A stretch of DNA of 64,000 bases from a virus, in the IMG/VR virus record IMGVR_UViG_3300031758_000027, positions 33,051-97,050 of that record; one strand, written 5' to 3'. A program made the position numbers and the translations under genes. Every line of letters begins with the position of its first letter. The stretch's first letter is position 1. The notes beneath the pieces are model-generated. The model was given only the letters and a program-made list of their open reading frames with translations. It searched no databases and had not been told where the DNA came from. Positions 47,466-64,000 of this stretch are shown here, one piece after another.

Positions 47466-48167
47466 ATGACAACAAAACAAAGAACAAATTTAGAGTTAGT
47501 GCATCCTGGTTTTGCTAACGGTGTTTCTATGCAATTAGCAGTTAAGCAAACATTAGAAGGTCCTGATGCTAGACTAACTGCAGAAGAAAAACAAGAAATT
47601 ATTGATAAAGCTGCATATCATTACGGACAATTTTTAACAGCATTAGGAGTAACATGGGAAACGGATCCAAATTCAGCTGATACTCCACGTAGAGTAGCAA
47701 AGGCATATGTAAATGATTTATGGGCCGGCCGATATAATCCAATGTCAGACATTACAGCATTTCCTAGTGACGGATATGATGGTATTGTATTTGAAGGAGG
47801 TATTCCATTAACTTCAATGTGTAGTCATCATCATCAGACAATTATGGGTAATGTACATGTTGCATATATTCCAGGTGAGAATAGCAATGTTATTGGTTTG
47901 AGTAAATTGAATCGTGTAGTAGAACACTTTGGCAGACGAGGTGCAATTCAAGAACAATTGACAGTAGCAATACATCACGCAATAGATGAATTAATTGAAA
48001 ACAATAAAGGTGTTGCAATCATGATTGAAGCAACGCATAATTGTGTGCAATGCAGAGGTGTTAAGCATGGCGGAGCTTCAATGAAGACAGCAAAGCTATC
48101 CGGAGCATTCTTAGAAGATGGTAATGCAAGATCAGAATTTTATCAATTTGTAAAAGGTTATAATTAA
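47466..48167 (+). CDS. folE: GTP cyclohydrolase I
   Basis: Converts GTP to dihydroneopterin triphosphate, the first step towards folate and 7-deazaguanine bases. The product is 233 residues. The zinc and catalytic site are SMCSHHHQ (Cys119 and the following His) and NCVQCRGVKHGGASM near 193-207. GENSNVIGLSKLNRVVEHFGRR is the family signature. It is coupled to queD (TAATG overlap) and close to queE, so its product most likely feeds preQ0-type synthesis rather than folate. Confidence 0.95.
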   Translation: MTTKQRTNLELVHPGFANGVSMQLAVKQTLEGPDARLTAEEKQEIIDKAAYHYGQFLTALGVTWETDPNSADTPRRVAKAYVNDLWAGRYNPMSDITAFPSDGYDGIVFEGGIPLTSMCSHHHQTIMGNVHVAYIPGENSNVIGLSKLNRVVEHFGRRGAIQEQLTVAIHHAIDELIENNKGVAIMIEATHNCVQCRGVKHGGASMKTAKLSGAFLEDGNARSEFYQFVKGYN

Positions 48168-48643
48168 TGGCACGTTACATTTCAACAAAACTATTTGAAA
48201 ACTATTCAGTAGCAATACGTCAATGGAAAGCTCAACATTCTCATTGTCAACTGCTACATGGATATGCACTTAAATTTAAAGTATGGTTTGCATCTAACGA
48301 ACCAGATATTGAGAATCAACTTGATGATATGAATTGGATTGTTGATTATGGAGGTTTCAAGACACCACCAAAAGGCAATGGTCTTAAAGATTGGATGGAT
48401 CATATGTGGGATCATACTACACTTATTCAAGCAGATGATCCTTATAGAGATATGTTTGAAATGCTTCAAGTATCTGGATTAGCAAAAGTACATTTTCTAG
48501 AAAAGATGGGTGCTGAATCGTGTGCTAAACTAGTATATGATAAATTCAATGAAGTTTTAGCAAATACAGATGCTGGCAGATGTCGATGTATCAAAGTAGA
48601 ATGTTTTGAAAACGATAATAATTCAAGTATATATGAAGAATAA
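48167..48643 (+). CDS. queD: 6-carboxytetrahydropterin synthase (QueD-like) with altered zinc site
   Basis: Second step of 7-deazaguanine synthesis, T-fold protein of 158 residues. Near the N-terminus AQHSHCQLLHGYA (22-34) matches the CxxxHGH region: Cys27 and His31 are kept but the third position is Tyr33. The zinc His of the FSAAH strand is Ile17 here (YSVAI). The IVDYGGFK segment, WDHTTLIQADDP and KVECFEN are as in QueD. Two of three zinc ligands therefore appear replaced, by eye. Context with folE and queE makes QueD the best name. Altered or assisted activity is possible. Confidence 0.82.
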   Translation: MARYISTKLFENYSVAIRQWKAQHSHCQLLHGYALKFKVWFASNEPDIENQLDDMNWIVDYGGFKTPPKGNGLKDWMDHMWDHTTLIQADDPYRDMFEMLQVSGLAKVHFLEKMGAESCAKLVYDKFNEVLANTDAGRCRCIKVECFENDNNSSIYEE

Positions 48644-48998
48644 TAATGAGACATATCTATCGCTTTTTGAATATTTAGGTAAAGGATCTGGAGGTACCAA
48701 TATTGGTCGAGAAGTAACAGCAGAAGCTATTAAACGAGGCGTTGAGATTAAATGGAGAATGTTACCGAAAGAAGCTCAGAAACCGGAATATACTCAAGTG
48801 CAATTGTATCCTATATCATTTTTAGATGATTATTTTGCTAATATGTCGGAAATGGATTTAACTCCAATTGTAAGGCGTTCTGAATTAATTAAATTGCAGG
48901 AACGATTGCAATTGCTTGAGTCTTTATTTCAAAACGTAATTAACAACTTGAATATATCAACAAATAAAATAGAAGATGACGATGACCTCCCATTCTAA
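48633..48998 (+). CDS. Unrecognised protein between queD and queE, 121 aa
   Basis: ATG 48633 is preferred. An in-frame ATG at 48606 would overlap queD further. The protein reads MKNNNETYLSLFEYLGKGSGGTNIGREVTAEA, then VQLYPISFLDDYFANMSEMDLTPIVRRSELIKLQERLQLLESLF. It ends in a helical segment and an acidic DDDDLPF tail. An acidic tail ending in Phe is reminiscent of proteins that touch ssDNA-binding or clamp partners. It overlaps both neighbours, so it is expressed with the deazaguanine genes. Function unknown. Confidence 0.65.
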   Translation: MKNNNETYLSLFEYLGKGSGGTNIGREVTAEAIKRGVEIKWRMLPKEAQKPEYTQVQLYPISFLDDYFANMSEMDLTPIVRRSELIKLQERLQLLESLFQNVINNLNISTNKIEDDDDLPF

Positions 48999-49764
48999 AA
49001 GAATTACAGATTACACGAAAATACTTCCAATAGTAGAATTATATCGTTGTGTACAATCAGAAGGATCTCGATTTGGCAGACCTACAATTGCAGTTAGAAC
49101 TACAGGCTGCACTCATCGTTGTTGGTTTGGCGAAGGAGGTTGGTGTGACTCTTGGTACACTAGCATTCACCCAGAAAAAGGCACATTTACATTTAATGAT
49201 ATCATTGATATTTATGATAAAAATCCACATATCAAAGAAATGATGTTAACGGGTGGATCTCCCACAATGCATCCTGCATTAGTTAACGAACTAACACATT
49301 TTGCACATGAAAGAGATATTCTCATTACTATTGAAACTGAAGGCTCGCATTTTATTGAGACTGATTATCCTATTGGGCTTATCTCTCTTAGCCCTAAGTT
49401 TAGCAATAGCGTTCCCAGGGTGGGTGTTGCTACGCCGCAAGGCACGATTACGGATGAAAAGATGGTTGCGCAACATAACAAGTTTAGGCTGAATTATTCA
49501 GCAATGAATGCAATGATAACCACTCATTCTGATTATCATTTTAAACCAGTATGGGATGGCACTGAAGAGAATCTTAAAGAAATTGAAGAAGCACGCGAAT
49601 TTTTAGAAATTCCTAAAGAAAAGACGTATATTATGCCCGCCGGCGATACTCGAGAAGAATTAATCAAAATGTATCCGATAGTATTTGAAATGTGTGCCGA
49701 ACGAGGATATAACATGACAGGAAGAGATCACATAATAGCTTTCAATACGCAGCGCGGGGTGTAA
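48976..49764 (+). CDS. queE: 7-carboxy-7-deazaguanine synthase (radical SAM QueE)
   Basis: Forms the 7-deazaguanine ring by radical SAM chemistry. The product is 262 residues. LYRCVQSEGSRFGRPTIAVRTTGC has the QueE N-terminal pattern (SEG...G...F.R..GC). The cluster cysteines are C45, C49 and C57 (CTHRC then WFGEGGWCD), a CX3CX7C spacing rather than the usual CX3CX2C, implying a short insertion in the cluster loop. EMMLTGGSPTMHP and ITIETEGSHF are the SAM-binding and substrate strands. It overlaps the preceding gene by 23 bases. Downstream QueC is not seen in this window. Confidence 0.9.
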   Translation: MTMTSHSKRITDYTKILPIVELYRCVQSEGSRFGRPTIAVRTTGCTHRCWFGEGGWCDSWYTSIHPEKGTFTFNDIIDIYDKNPHIKEMMLTGGSPTMHPALVNELTHFAHERDILITIETEGSHFIETDYPIGLISLSPKFSNSVPRVGVATPQGTITDEKMVAQHNKFRLNYSAMNAMITTHSDYHFKPVWDGTEENLKEIEEAREFLEIPKEKTYIMPAGDTREELIKMYPIVFEMCAERGYNMTGRDHIIAFNTQRGV

Positions 49765-54520: not shown

Positions 54521-54946
54521 ATGATTGGTTATAGAACTCATTGGTATGGTAAAGAAGTAGAAGGTCGCTTTACCGATATTGAAACTTTATTTATTGCTGA
54601 TGTAAAGGCATTAGATAAAATTGTAGCAAATAAAATAGCACATGTTTATTTTTGTTCCGGAGCTACACAGCAGTTAATTGAACAAGAGCGATGGGATATG
54701 GTATTCAGAATGATTTCTGATACTAGTTTTGTAACATTAGAAGTTACTCCTGGTATGTTAGAAAAGATACCACCAATGATTAGAATTCGAGCTCACATCT
54801 TATTAATGTTGGATTGTAAAGATGCTGGATTGCTAAAGAAAACAGATAGTATTAAAGTTGTGTATGCAGATTATTCATTGTATTGTACCACAGTGCATAA
54901 TATGCAACAAGTAACTCCAGATGATTATAAATTCGATAGACAATGA
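54521..54946 (+). CDS. Unrecognised protein, 141 aa
   Basis: Starts MIGYRTHWYGKEVEGRFTDIETLFIADVKALDKIV, alpha/beta, with strands IAHVYFCSGA and IKVVYADYSLYC. There is no signature motif. A TATAAT-like sequence lies just upstream, and its stop overlaps the cytidylyltransferase start (ATGA). It is probably part of the unit leading to the glycosyltransferase and DpdA-like genes. Function unknown. Confidence 0.7.
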   Translation: MIGYRTHWYGKEVEGRFTDIETLFIADVKALDKIVANKIAHVYFCSGATQQLIEQERWDMVFRMISDTSFVTLEVTPGMLEKIPPMIRIRAHILLMLDCKDAGLLKKTDSIKVVYADYSLYCTTVHNMQQVTPDDYKFDRQ

Positions 54947-55359
54947 AAATAGGAGTAATTGCTGGTAACTTTGATGTAATACATCCAGGTTATATTAAGA
55001 TGTTTAATGAATGTAAAAAACATTGTACTAGGTTGATTGTATTGTTACATGAAGATCCTAGTATCGAACGTCCAGAAAAAATGAAACCTATCTTATCAGT
55101 AGCCGAACGTAAAGAAATGTTGCTTTCATTAGAAATGATTGATGAAGTTATAACGTATTCTACGGAAAAAATACTTTATGAATTTATTAAAGGTATTGAT
55201 CCGGATATTCGTTTCCTAGGAGATGATTACATTGGAAAAGATTTTACCGGTAAAGATTTAGGTACTCTTATTCATTACATTGATAGATCACATGGTTGGT
55301 CTACAACTAAATATAAACAATTAATTGCAGATGAAGTACAGCGTAGTAGTAACATTTAG
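54943..55359 (+). CDS. Cytidylyltransferase-like nucleotidyltransferase (TagD/RfaE type)
   Basis: A 138-residue protein of the HxGH nucleotidyltransferase superfamily. GNFDVIHPGYIKMFNECKK near 8-26 holds the HxGH site in the form HPGY, so the second His is Tyr. KPILSVAERKEML near 47-59 and RSHGWSTTKYKQLI near 118-131 parallel the RTxxISTT signature of glycerol-3-phosphate cytidylyltransferases. It would activate a small phosphorylated alcohol or sugar as a CDP/NDP donor. The glycosyltransferase two genes downstream could use such a donor; that link is inference. Confidence 0.75.
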   Translation: MKIGVIAGNFDVIHPGYIKMFNECKKHCTRLIVLLHEDPSIERPEKMKPILSVAERKEMLLSLEMIDEVITYSTEKILYEFIKGIDPDIRFLGDDYIGKDFTGKDLGTLIHYIDRSHGWSTTKYKQLIADEVQRSSNI

Positions 55360-55681
55360 TATTGAAGGGTTTCATTGTTGGCCCGCTGCTAAAGATGTGT
55401 TCCCGGAAGTAGCATTCTTATCGGATAGACATCGACACATGTTTGGATTTCGATGTTATGCACATGTAACGCATACGGATCGAGACAAAGAATTTATTTT
55501 ATTAAATCGAGAGATAAAACGAAATCTTCATATGTATTTCGAAAAAGATGCATATAATGTACTAGAATTTGGTGCAATGTCATGCGAAGCTATTGGAGAA
55601 TTTTTATTAGATCAATTTCCAGAATTATACAAAGTAGAAGTTTGGGAAGATTGGGAAAATGGAGCGATAATTGAAAGATAA
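55331..55681 (+). CDS. QueD/PTPS T-fold-like protein, 116 aa
   Basis: ATG 55331 is preferred over TTG 55325. FSIEGFHCW (His15), RHRHMFGF (His34, His36), a DRDKEF segment, SCEAIGEFLLDQF and EVWEDWENGAII follow the order FSAAH / HGHSF / DF / TSE / KET of QueD. The zinc triad seems kept, but the catalytic Cys before HGH is not. It overlaps the cytidylyltransferase and precedes the glycosyltransferase by one base. Proteins with this HRHxF pattern are widespread and usually unnamed. Role in pterin or deazaguanine chemistry is inferred from fold-like motifs and context. Confidence 0.6.
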   Translation: MKYSVVVTFSIEGFHCWPAAKDVFPEVAFLSDRHRHMFGFRCYAHVTHTDRDKEFILLNREIKRNLHMYFEKDAYNVLEFGAMSCEAIGEFLLDQFPELYKVEVWEDWENGAIIER

Positions 55682-55682
55682 G

Positions 55683-56711
55683 ATGAGAATATTTTTAGTT
55701 GACATAGAATCAGTACCAACTCGTTATACCTGCGAATGGAAGACTCATGTACCAAAATTATTAGAAGAAGCTGGATTTGAAGTAATTGTTGTAGAGGGAG
55801 ATTTGAATATTCCAGAAGCAACCACTCCAGGTGCATTCTTAAATTTTGGTGGTACTAACATGTATAAAGCAAAGCAAGTTCATTCTTTAAGTTACATGTT
55901 TACCCGAGGACATATTCAGCCAGGAGATCATATTATTTTTACAGATGCATGGCATCCGGGTATTATCAATGTAAAATACATGAGCGAACTCCTAAATATT
56001 CCCGTTGTAACGCACGGACTATGGCACGCGGGGTCATATGATCCAAATGATTTTTTAGGTCGTCTCGTAGGAGGAAAATCGTGGATACGACACGCAGAAC
56101 AATCATTTATATCTGCATTTGATTTCAATTGGTTAGCAACACAAGCTCACTTTGATTTAATGAGTAAAACATATGATATATCATTCAATTTAACATTTCA
56201 TCGTACGGGCTGGCCAATGGAATATACCAAAAATATAATTCAACCAAAAGCTTGGGCAGAAAAAGAAAACATCATAGTGTTTCCGCACCGTATAGCTCCT
56301 GAGAAACGATTAGACTTATTTCAAGAATTAGCAGCTCGTCCAGAATTAGCACATTATCAATTCTGTGTAGCAATGGAAATGAATTTAACTAAACCAGAAT
56401 ATCATGAATTGCTTCGACGAGCTAAGTTTGCAGTATCATTTGCAGATCAAGAAACATTAGGTATATCAATGTATGAATCAGCTTGTGCAGGAGCATGTCC
56501 GATTGTGCCAGATAGATTATCATACACTGAAATGTATTCGCCGATGTTTAAACGTGCGAATAGTATAGATGATGTGGTTCAAGCAATATTAGAATATGAA
56601 AATGCTGATATAACAACTAATATTAATCAACTGGTTACAGCATTACATAAAAACTTTTTTTCAGCAACAAAATTAATTAATAAACTAAAGGAATACAATG
56701 AGCGAAGCTAA
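55683..56711 (+). CDS. GT-B glycosyltransferase (GT4-like), overlapping the DpdA-like gene
   Basis: ATG 55683 starts MRIFLVDIESVPTRYTCEW. The product is 342 residues. The C-terminal donor domain has FPHRIAPEKRLDLFQELAAR near 220-240 and QETLGISMYESACAGACPIVP near 260-280 with the E-x7-E motif of GT4 enzymes. The N-terminal domain with THGLWHAGSYDP would bind the acceptor. Its last 14 bases overlap the DpdA-like gene, implying coupled translation. It could glycosylate DNA bases, as T4 glucosyltransferases do, or a virion or host glycan; the overlap favours a base. Confidence 0.8.
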   Translation: MRIFLVDIESVPTRYTCEWKTHVPKLLEEAGFEVIVVEGDLNIPEATTPGAFLNFGGTNMYKAKQVHSLSYMFTRGHIQPGDHIIFTDAWHPGIINVKYMSELLNIPVVTHGLWHAGSYDPNDFLGRLVGGKSWIRHAEQSFISAFDFNWLATQAHFDLMSKTYDISFNLTFHRTGWPMEYTKNIIQPKAWAEKENIIVFPHRIAPEKRLDLFQELAARPELAHYQFCVAMEMNLTKPEYHELLRRAKFAVSFADQETLGISMYESACAGACPIVPDRLSYTEMYSPMFKRANSIDDVVQAILEYENADITTNINQLVTALHKNFFSATKLINKLKEYNERS

Positions 56712-57960
56712 AAGATTCATATACTTTCCATCATTATCTGCAGGATCTATGGTTTCTGCATTTAAGAAAGATATGAAATTTTCAAATGGTGACCCTGTAA
56801 AGTTTTTTGACTCTCGTTATCCAGAAGATTGGAGACATCCATACTTTTTGATTACGGCAGGACATCATTACAAAAAAATGGATTTTCGAGATCAACTAGG
56901 ATTAGAAAAAGATGTATTAGTATTTGGAGATTCTGGAGGATATCAGATTGCAACTGGTGCTTTGCCGTATAGTAATGAACTTCGTGAAAAGATTTTTCAT
57001 TGGTTAGAAGCAAACAGCGATGTTGCAGCAAATTTAGATATACCACCTAAAACTAAATATAGAAATCAATTTGCAACATGTGCAGATATTAGTTATGATA
57101 ACTTTGCTTGGTTTGAAAAACATCAAAGCGGTAAGACTAAGTTTTTGAATATGTTGCAAGGATCGAATGCTGAGGAATATACATGGTGGTATCATAAATT
57201 CAAGCATTTTGATTTTCAAGGATGGGCGATTGGTGGTCCACAAAAATTAGTTGATTTCATGTTTGCATTATCATTAATGCTTAAAGAAGGAGAATTTGAA
57301 AAAACTCGTAATGAATATCTTCACTTGTTAGGAATTAGTAAAATTTCCGATTTCTTTATTTTAGCAACAATGCAAAAATTAATGAATAAACATTACGGAG
57401 GAAGAATTACAGTAACAACGGATTCATCATCACCAGGACAATATCCAGTATTTGGAACGTATCTTCATTCAACAAATTTCAAGACACAAACATTCTCTGA
57501 ATTGTATTTTCCAAAGAATGCTGAGTATCGACGTAAGTCACATATCAAACAAGGCAAAACGGGTGATGTAACTGGAATTGATTTGACACAACATGTACCT
57601 TGTCAATTAGGATGTCCAGCTTGTGCTGATTTTACATATGAATATCTCGGCGGTAAGACGGATGCTGGATTAGATAGATATTCACAAGAAGCTATGCCTA
57701 GAATGGTTGTTCATAATACCCATTTGTATGTGAATGCTGCAAAAGAAATAAATCAATTAGTTGATAGTCACGTTGAATTGTTAGAAACAGTAGTTCCTAA
57801 AGATTTATATGATGTGATTTTATCATTGCATGAAATGTTTGCAGATCCAGATGCAGCACCACAAGTATACGAAAAGTATATTAAAACATATAAAAAATTC
57901 GGAGGTGATTCAATTTCAACTACCGATGCAGAAAACTTTAATAAATTCTTTAAATTTTAA
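56698..57960 (+). CDS. dpdA: TGT-like DNA transglycosylase (DpdA family)
   Basis: Related to tRNA-guanine transglycosylase; phage DpdA proteins swap guanine in DNA for a 7-deazaguanine. The product is 420 residues. VFGDSGGYQIATG (75-87) carries the general-base Asp78. MLQGSNAEE (152-160) and GWAIGGPQK (175-183) are TGT-barrel motifs. TTDSSSPGQ places the likely nucleophile at Asp242. The zinc site is Cys302, Cys306 and Cys309 with His339 in VVHNTHLYV. It is in the same genome as folE, queD and queE, and no tRNA gene or tRNA target is seen. DNA modification is therefore the best reading; activity on tRNA cannot be excluded. Confidence 0.85.
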   Translation: MSEAKRFIYFPSLSAGSMVSAFKKDMKFSNGDPVKFFDSRYPEDWRHPYFLITAGHHYKKMDFRDQLGLEKDVLVFGDSGGYQIATGALPYSNELREKIFHWLEANSDVAANLDIPPKTKYRNQFATCADISYDNFAWFEKHQSGKTKFLNMLQGSNAEEYTWWYHKFKHFDFQGWAIGGPQKLVDFMFALSLMLKEGEFEKTRNEYLHLLGISKISDFFILATMQKLMNKHYGGRITVTTDSSSPGQYPVFGTYLHSTNFKTQTFSELYFPKNAEYRRKSHIKQGKTGDVTGIDLTQHVPCQLGCPACADFTYEYLGGKTDAGLDRYSQEAMPRMVVHNTHLYVNAAKEINQLVDSHVELLETVVPKDLYDVILSLHEMFADPDAAPQVYEKYIKTYKKFGGDSISTTDAENFNKFFKF

Positions 57961-62782: not shown

Positions 62783-64000
62783 ATGGAGTTACCAAAATTA
62801 AGAAAAATTGATCCTAACCGTCCTGCAAAAAAGAAAATTCTATTATTAGCAGATGATTTCCGTCTTCCATCTGGAATTGGAACAGTTAGCAAAGAAATTA
62901 TTTTAAACACCGTTAAGGAATTTGATTGGGTGCAATTAGGTGCAGCAATCAATCATCCAGATGCCGGCAAAGCATTTGATTTGTCTCAAGAAATTGCTCG
63001 AGAAACTGGCATACAAGATGCGTCAGTTAAATTGATTCCATGGAATGGATATGGAGACAGAAACATCTTGTTTGCAATTTTGAATCAAGAACGTCCCGAT
63101 GCAATTCTTCACTTTACAGATCCTCGTTACTGGACTTGGTTGTATCAACTAGAACATGAAATTAAAACAACGTTTGGTGTTCCAATTACGTATTATTCTA
63201 TTTGGGATGATTTGCCGTATCCAATGTGGAACGCCCCTTTTTACGGCAGTTGTGATATGATTATGGGCATTAGTAAGCAATCTGATAATATTCACAGAGA
63301 AGTGCTTAAACAGAACGGATTTGGGGTTGTAGATTATGATGATGGAGATTCAGCTCCTGCAGATCTTAAATGGAATCAAGTAGTTACCGGATTTGTGCCG
63401 CACGGATTGAATCACAACATGTTTAAGCCGTTACCAAAAACCGATGAAACATACAAGCAAATGTATGAACGCATTAAAACACGTAACGGCGTAGATTTTG
63501 TAGTATTTTGGAACAATCGAAATATTAGAAGGAAGCAACCAGGTGATTTAGTTATTGCATTCAAACATTTTGTAGATCAGTTACCAGCAGAACAACAGAG
63601 TCGTGTTGCATTATTAATGCATACTCAAGCAATTGATGAAAATGGAACGGATCTTCGTGCAGTAGCAAAGGCATTAGCACCAAATTGTAAAATATTGTTT
63701 TCAGAACAAAAATTATCTTCACAAGATCTTAATGCAATGTACAATGTAGCTGATGTTGTAGTTAATATTGGTAGCAACGAAGGATGGGGATTAAGTTCAA
63801 CCGAAGCGATGCTATCAGGTACTCCAATAATTAACAATGTAACTGGTGGATTGCAAGATCAATGTGGTTTTCAAGATGAAAATGGAGAATGGATTCGTTT
63901 CAATGGTGAATTTGCAACAAATCATACCGGTAAGTTTAAGAAACATGGAAGTTGGGCAAAACCAGTATTTCCAACCAATAGATCATTACAAGGATCACAA
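62783..64000 (+). CDS. GT-B glycosyltransferase (GT4-like), 3' end cut by window
   Basis: ATG 62783 follows AAGGAATAAT. The frame is open to the window end, giving 406 codons, and it continues beyond. It starts MELPKLRKIDPNRPAKKKILLLADDFRLPSGIGTVSKEI; the SGIGTVS loop is typical of GT4 N-terminal acceptor domains. VVFWNNRNIRRKQPGDLVIAF near 239-259 and NVADVVVNIGSNEGWGLSSTEAMLSGTPII with an E-x7-E motif near 320-345 form the donor domain. With a late-type promoter, glycan or virion decoration late in infection is plausible. A nucleobase target is also possible given the deazaguanine genes. Confidence 0.85.
   Translation, partial: MELPKLRKIDPNRPAKKKILLLADDFRLPSGIGTVSKEIILNTVKEFDWVQLGAAINHPDAGKAFDLSQEIARETGIQDASVKLIPWNGYGDRNILFAILNQERPDAILHFTDPRYWTWLYQLEHEIKTTFGVPITYYSIWDDLPYPMWNAPFYGSCDMIMGISKQSDNIHREVLKQNGFGVVDYDDGDSAPADLKWNQVVTGFVPHGLNHNMFKPLPKTDETYKQMYERIKTRNGVDFVVFWNNRNIRRKQPGDLVIAFKHFVDQLPAEQQSRVALLMHTQAIDENGTDLRAVAKALAPNCKILFSEQKLSSQDLNAMYNVADVVVNIGSNEGWGLSSTEAMLSGTPIINNVTGGLQDQCGFQDENGEWIRFNGEFATNHTGKFKKHGSWAKPVFPTNRSLQGSQ

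Follow-up and report, generated by a model that had tools for sequence, protein, structure and literature searches.

Glycosylated DNA is known from hydroxymethylated pyrimidines. In phage T4, hydroxymethylcytosine is made as a nucleotide. Its glucosylation in DNA is post-replicative (PMC13216743). Another group of phages has deazaguanine systems, among them Vibrio phage nt-1, the DNA of which carries dPreQ0 (Hutinet et al. 2019, PMC6884629). Systems of the nt-1 DpdA2 kind combine FolE, QueD and QueE with a transglycosylase of the tRNA-guanine transglycosylase (TGT) type, which has the DSGG and D.P motifs and a nucleophilic Asp. In bacteria, DpdA-type genes are found in the genomic dpd islands (Thiaville et al. 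2016, as described in PMC12707154). No published report of a glycosylated deazaguanine in phage DNA was found in the literature covered, whose scope did not extend to the mass-spectrometry survey of Cui et al. 2023 and a 2024 MMBR review.

Herein, a viral locus is considered in which a glycosyltransferase (GT) gene overlaps a gene of a DpdA-like protein. Based on comparison of the sequences, it seems probable that the GT glycosylates a deazaguanine placed in phage DNA by the DpdA-like enzyme.

Organization of the Locus

The window, i.e., the whole stretch of DNA analysed (64,000 nucleotides), corresponds to bases 33,051–97,050 of the 97,050-base IMG/VR record IMGVR_UViG_3300031758_000027, which is a 97 kb fragment. 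The following genes, given with their positions in the window, are discussed below:

47466–48167, + strand: FolE, GTP cyclohydrolase I (PF01227, E 2.5e-44)
48167–48643, + strand: QueD, 6-carboxytetrahydropterin synthase (PF01242, E 2e-11; phrog_2389, E 7e-32)
48976–49764, + strand: QueE-like radical SAM protein, 7-carboxy-7-deazaguanine synthase (phrog_2076, E 3e-50; TIGR03365, E 1.3e-14)
54521–54946, + strand: conserved protein of unknown function, 141 aa (hhalign against the c27 family)
54943–55359, + strand: TagD/HldE-C-like nucleotidyltransferase, HPGY for HxGH (PF01467, E 5.8e-14; PDB 1coz, E 3e-10), below called cytidylyltransferase-like
55331–55681, + strand: QueD-like T-fold paralogue, 116 aa (Foldseek, E. 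coli QueD; phrog_17812, E 1.2e-24)
55683–56711, + strand: GT4-type glycosyltransferase, 342 aa (PF00534; GT-B model, pLDDT 92.8; invariant GT4 motifs)
56698–57960, + strand: putative DpdA-like DNA guanine transglycosylase, 420 aa, divergent DpdA2-type (TGT profile matches; catalytic Asp motifs)

The last five genes form a run in this order, and dN/dS values of 0.07–0.27 indicate purifying selection on all of them. The first-pass annotation had described the GT gene as ending 14 bases inside the DpdA-like gene, and this overlap is exact (ATG at 55683 and stop to 56711 for the former, ATG at 56698 and end at 57960 for the latter). The tight run of the T-fold and cytidylyltransferase-like genes upstream, also described there, was confirmed by the coordinates: a single base separates the end of the T-fold gene (55681) from the GT start codon, and the ATG of the T-fold gene at 55331 lies inside the cytidylyltransferase-like gene, giving an overlap of 29 bases, while the latter overlaps the upstream ORF by 4 bases. 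FolE, QueD and QueE (starting at 47466, 48167 and 48976) are located about 5–8 kb upstream of the run. Sliding clamp, dUTPase and clamp loader genes come next after the DpdA-like gene; together with polB, the sliding clamp and clamp loader are the replication genes that surround the module.

A Bacteroidota host is suggested for the window phage by the identity of its FolE (65%) and QueE (63%) to those of Cellulophaga phage phiST. Searches of Pfam, NCBIfam and PHROGs were by themselves of little use for the T-fold protein, the DpdA-like protein and the product of ORF 54521–54946. The last is a probable homologue of the c27 family (hhalign probability 89%, E 2e-6; example at L003:7233–7718, where L numbers denote the compared loci), members of which adjoin DpdA or T-fold genes in distant phages; thus, proteins of this kind stand next to the module both in the window clade and far from it. 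In four loci, a homing-endonuclease-like gene (c39) is inserted between the T-fold and GT genes (L019:9397–9981, L030:4318–4902, L056:9397–9981 and L076:9397–9981).

Glycosyltransferase

The match of the GT to PF00534 is marginal (27.5 bits against the curated cut-off of 26.4). Its sequence profile gave no match in the PDB, and the fold was assigned through structure prediction. The model, built from a 33-sequence alignment, has a GT-B fold related to retaining GT4 enzymes, with BshA as the best Foldseek match in the PDB (E 3.9e-11) and glycogen synthase, MshA, TarM, the tetrahydrobiopterin glucosyltransferase BGluT and SenB among the further ones. R203 and K208, the basic donor-phosphate residues, and E257-x7-E265 of the EX7E motif are invariant in the 33 sequences. 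By sequence and predicted structure, the product of 55683–56711 is a GT4-type glycosyltransferase with putative sugar-transferring function.

This protein represents a distinct family. Against predicted viral structures, the model matched that from phage ACP17 (E 5e-33, TM 0.92) and one other closely related structure (E 3e-20), after which there is a gap down to E 3e-10. No PHROGs profile matches the ACP17 or PA5oct members. A scan with the GT alignment yielded at least 596 related IMG/VR stretches, and 79 distinct viral loci were obtained in the scan with the window GT. For one and the same pair of phages, identity is 53–55% for the GT and 23–25% for DpdA, and the GT partners with several TGT types; such better conservation with varied partners would be expected if the GT recognises the base.

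The structural matches also bear on the chief rival of DNA glycosylation, namely, that the GT glycosylates free 7-deazaguanine or a pterin intermediate and DpdA then inserts the ready-made glycosylated base. Indeed, the nearest GT4 folds include those of enzymes with small soluble acceptors (BGluT with tetrahydrobiopterin, BshA, MshA and SenB), and the GT itself is acidic (net charge of about −8) with no evident DNA-binding charge. However, the folds resemble one another only as GT4 folds in general do, the pockets of TGT-type enzymes are adapted to small bases, and the known glucosylation of phage DNA, that of T4, follows replication, as noted above. We regard glycosylation before insertion as rather unlikely and prefer its occurrence on the deazaguanine already inserted into DNA.

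DpdA-Like Transglycosylase

The DpdA-like protein has no Pfam match. When its profile was compared with the PDB, all 25 matches at E up to 1 were tRNA-guanine transglycosylases (best E 0.18); weak one by one, these matches appear specific taken together. D78 in DSGG, D114 and D242 are invariant and aligned with those of nt-1 DpdA2. The DSGG and D.P motifs and the nucleophilic Asp are likewise invariant, and the QG, GG and LG motifs are also kept. The GT partners from phages ACP17 and X1 have 37% (E 5e-50) and 35% (E 2e-41) identity to nt-1 DpdA2, respectively. The window protein itself matches it weakly, with a pairwise E of 0.014, and the profiles of its family gave E 0.0006–0.03 in a search set of three sequences. 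It is because of this weak match that the protein is called DpdA2-like here: it is a putative DNA transglycosylase, very divergent from that of nt-1.

T-Fold Protein and Nature of the Base

For the T-fold protein, there is no Pfam match, and its sequence profile gave only chance matches in the PDB. The AlphaFold2 model (pLDDT 91.8) is similar to E. coli QueD (4ntk, Foldseek E 3e-7, probability 1.0). The zinc ligands H15, H34 and H36 are invariant and the substrate-side Glu is kept, and in 19 T-fold sequences no catalytic Cys is conserved ahead of the His pair. The separate QueD at 48167 retains its catalytic Cys (C27). On the simplest reading of the sequence and the model, the T-fold protein is a Cys-less QueD paralogue, a candidate processing enzyme that would act on 7-carboxy-7-deazaguanine (CDG). 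The T-fold gene also occurs without GT, beside FolE, QueD and QueE and a short TGT-like protein of 260–285 aa, as in phiST. In all nine sequences of the QueD group to which 48167–48643 belongs, that of phiST included, the catalytic Cys is kept and HGY takes the place of the expected HGH, with its zinc ligand.

QueC was not found above the cut-off in any of 14 records, including the window record (the 97 kb fragment), and there were only weak partial matches. Because of this absence of QueC, the base is probably CDG or its derivative. A phage CDG decarboxylase, named DpdL, was reportedly predicted by Cui et al. in 2023. In Xanthomonas phage X1, a PP-loop protein of the PAPS-reductase type, which is not QueC by Pfam, is encoded between FolE and GT (L005:7332–7865).

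Association of the Glycosyltransferase with Deazaguanine Genes

The neighbourhood of the GT was studied in all 70 GT-seeded loci in which each flank measures 5 kb or more, reduced to 20 by dereplication to below 70% identity; DpdA, T-fold, FolE, QueD or QueE within 5 kb of the GT was counted as a deazaguanine gene. Such a gene occurs in all 70 loci (DpdA in 68/70, T-fold in 60/70) as well as in all 20 dereplicated ones (DpdA in 19). A DpdA-like protein is also encoded in each of the 19 GenBank phage records that have a GT relative, having been found by BLAST in 16 of them and by profile or annotation in ACP17 (two records) and X1. The GT adjoins T-fold and/or DpdA genes in PA5oct, ACP17, Phosso and X1; in Phosso, T-fold, FolE and QueE flank the GT, and a distance of about 170 kb separates it from the DpdA-like gene. 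The neighbourhood recurs, far beyond chance, where the identity of the GTs is only about 40%.

The first-pass annotation had placed the GT in a deazaguanine operon, and the comparison bears this out: neither the 70 loci above, nor the 19 GenBank records, nor the 11 bacterial loci considered below showed a GT that lacks deazaguanine genes and stands beside fibre genes. Judging from these sequences, the GT almost certainly belongs to the deazaguanine module. Fusions among the GT, DpdA and T-fold genes were not found in any of the loci. Phages 9g, CAjan, nt-1, immuto and phiST, all having deazaguanine systems of other types, and phage MA9V-3 gave no match to the GT.

A second GT4 gene is located at 62783–64000 and runs off the end of the window. 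In relatives, a GT pair and a GT2 gene are found about 6 kb downstream, as they also are in Flavobacterium phage immuto. This second region is likely a separate glycan pathway. Phage immuto shares the second GT (48% identity) at the corresponding position, behind a PD-(D/E)XK nuclease gene. Its deazaguanine genes include QueD, QueE, FolE, a short DpdA, a formyltransferase and a gene annotated as QueF, and no match to the window-type GT or T-fold families was found there. Since immuto keeps the second GT without the first, the first follows one deazaguanine type and not the other glycan genes of the phage. A scan with the second GT, meant as a control, returned close relatives only and was not distance-matched.

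Sugar transfer of another kind thus occurs in the same phages, and the cluster of the second GT is kept in immuto with a different deazaguanine type and without the first GT. Both facts would suit a GT that decorates a virion protein or a surface glycan of the host, its place in the deazaguanine operon being accidental. Against this stand the absence of GT without deazaguanine genes in the flanked loci and GenBank records (0/70 and 0/19) and the transfer of the GT together with DpdA into bacterial chromosomes, where no virion genes were recognised beside them. In our opinion, such a target is very improbable, as it is nearly refuted by the association alone.

A distant homologue of the GT (25% identity, E 7e-38 to the GT profile) was found in Xanthomonas PhiXhv phages. 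Its gene is 3' of those of a Gat-QueC fusion (PF06508, E 2e-49, with GATase_7) and a PIG-L deacetylase and 5' of that of a Gfo/Idh/MocA oxidoreductase. The four genes stand in a row in Xanthomonas phage PhiXhv-12 (L305:5744–9830), which suggests an amino-sugar on archaeosine-type DNA. There is no PIG-L deacetylase in the window record; one was found in another record (G001), away from the GT.

Supply of the Sugar Donor

It had also been supposed in the first-pass annotation that the cytidylyltransferase provides an activated sugar or alditol. This part was not supported, as the gene is sporadic, has HPGY in place of HxGH and is common outside the GT set. Of 46 close relatives, 38 have it and eight do not; it is found within 5 kb of the GT in just one of the 20 dereplicated loci and is missing in nearly all distant relatives. 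In the family alignment, HPGY occurs throughout the window clade and HAGH in distant relatives. The gene was also met near T-fold or other deazaguanine genes without GT (L197, L233 and L238), and 126 phage records encode it versus 19 for the GT.

The formation of CDP-sugar or CDP-alditol for the GT by this protein would be an addition compatible with DNA glycosylation. The TagD-like sequence, the overlapping genes, the presence in most close relatives and, near the cassette of some phages, paired Gfo/Idh/MocA and Zn-ADH genes together with sugar-nucleotide genes speak in its favour, but the altered motif of the whole window clade, the absence of the gene at most of the distant GT loci and its wide occurrence without GT make such a function unlikely.

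In other lineages, Gfo/Idh/MocA and Zn-dependent alcohol dehydrogenase genes (35 and 36 matches) form a tandem beside FolE/QueD or DpdA (L033:1965–3812, L064:6118–7916 and about 33 more loci); the best PDB match of the MocA protein is DgpA (E 3e-4). In eight loci, QueD and QueE are separated by genes of a sugar C-methyltransferase, cupin, SDR and epimerase, and this island of sugar-nucleotide style is seen in large phages (for example, L062:14405–19123). As the donor genes differ among lineages, donor supply varies by lineage, and in the window phage the donor may be a nucleotide sugar of the host.

Alphaproteobacterial Loci

The GT and a DpdA-like gene were also found together in eleven alphaproteobacterial loci (L155–L165), two of which (L158 and L161) have a T-fold gene beside the GT. 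The carriers include Shimia ponticola, Sulfitobacter and Devosia. All eleven loci also encode a short Vut_1/YhhQ-type membrane protein; the two of these proteins tested gave E 3e-5 and 7e-5, just under the Pfam cut-off. In the four bacterial genomes tested, the Vut_1 copy of the locus is additional to a stronger Vut_1 gene, a normal TGT is present, and QueC gave partial matches only. FolE, QueD and QueE were not seen within about 10 kb of the bacterial loci.

Tyrosine integrases accompany many of these loci, and PADLOC recognised only a PD-T4-4-like gene (in L155) among the neighbours tested. The loci are rare: the GT was found in one of 385 Alphaproteobacteria genomes sampled, which was the genome of the query itself. 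Since a Vut_1-type transporter is present in 11/11 loci and QueC matches are partial in 4/4 genomes, these gene sets fit a salvage system in which the base would be imported, then inserted and glycosylated.

Proposed Pathway

The cassette may be regarded as a two-stage pathway of DNA hypermodification. In the first stage, as their families suggest, FolE, QueD and QueE would form CDG, which the Cys-less QueD paralogue would process further, possibly by decarboxylation to 7-deazaguanine, and the DpdA2-like transglycosylase would exchange guanine in phage DNA for the resulting base. In the second stage, the GT4 enzyme would use a nucleotide sugar to glycosylate the deazaguanine now present in the DNA, and the sugar so added would shield the DNA from nucleases. 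The donor may be an NDP-sugar of the host or, in some lineages, a sugar made by the phage. In Alphaproteobacteria, the GT and DpdA pair would be fed by deazaguanine imported via the adjacent YhhQ/VUT-type transporter.

Chemistry is the main weakness of the DNA-glycosylation reading. CDG and 7-deazaguanine have no obvious hydroxyl group; if no further enzyme supplied a handle, the sugar would therefore have to be attached in an unusual way (N-, C- or ester-linked). Furthermore, enzymes with GT4 folds use many small molecules as substrates, pterins among them (BGluT), and the gene association alone does not distinguish among DNA, free base, tRNA and a pathway intermediate as the target of the GT.

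Glycosylated queuosine exists in animal tRNA, and the bacterial carriers possess a normal TGT. It is therefore conceivable that the GT acts on another item or product of the pathway, such as a deazaguanine-containing tRNA or a cofactor, with DNA left unglycosylated. However, a separate DpdA-type enzyme is encoded at almost all GT loci, the module is placed among the replication genes polB, sliding clamp and clamp loader, and the partner in ACP17 and X1 is DpdA2, whose nt-1 homologue is linked to DNA modification (PMC6884629). We find a tRNA or cofactor target quite improbable and retain DNA glycosylation as the preferred reading.

Significance and Comparison with Known Systems

More tentatively, sugar-decorated 7-deazaguanine may constitute a widespread and unreported class of DNA bases, in which one GT4 family works with several kinds of DNA transglycosylases in phages of several host groups and has moved, together with DpdA and an importer, into alphaproteobacterial integrative islands, there marking the DNA of the bacterium or of the element. 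If glycosylated deazapurine does exist, it would be a further route to glycosylated DNA and would explain this GT family, which is present in at least 596 viral stretches although its members from ACP17 and PA5oct match no PHROGs profile. Its existence is directly testable because cultured carriers are available: Acidovorax phage ACP17, Pseudomonas phages PA5oct, Paride and MIJ3, Xanthomonas phage X1 and Sinorhizobium phage Phosso. Knowledge of DNA chemistry in the Pseudomonas carriers would bear on which bacterial defences can cut them, and the alphaproteobacterial islands with transporter, GT and DpdA would represent a novel type of DNA marking that is fed by salvage.

The locus shares with nt-1 DpdA2 systems the FolE-QueD-QueE set and the TGT-type transglycosylase with its motifs, and differs from them by the absence of QueC (14/14 records), the extra Cys-less QueD paralogue and the presence of GT4. 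In common with the T4 DNA glucosyltransferases, which form glucosylated hydroxymethylcytosine, it has a phage GT proposed to add a protective sugar to a modified base. The base, however, is a deazapurine introduced by base exchange, and the GT is of a different family, no T4 enzyme being among its best 50 PDB or viral structural matches. The alphaproteobacterial loci resemble the bacterial dpd islands in being genomic islands with a DpdA-type gene and are composed of a Vut_1-type transporter, GT, DpdA and integrases, with the PD-T4-4-like gene in L155 as the only defence match among the tested neighbours.

MshA and BshA of mycothiol and bacillithiol biosynthesis, the nearest structural matches, have the same retaining GT-B fold of the GT4 type and work with the PIG-L deacetylases MshB and BshB, just as the PhiXhv homologue of the GT adjoins a PIG-L deacetylase. 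In contrast, the window GT has about 13% identity to them and no PIG-L gene in its record, and where MshA and BshA take malate or inositol phosphate as the acceptor, that of the window GT is presumably the base.
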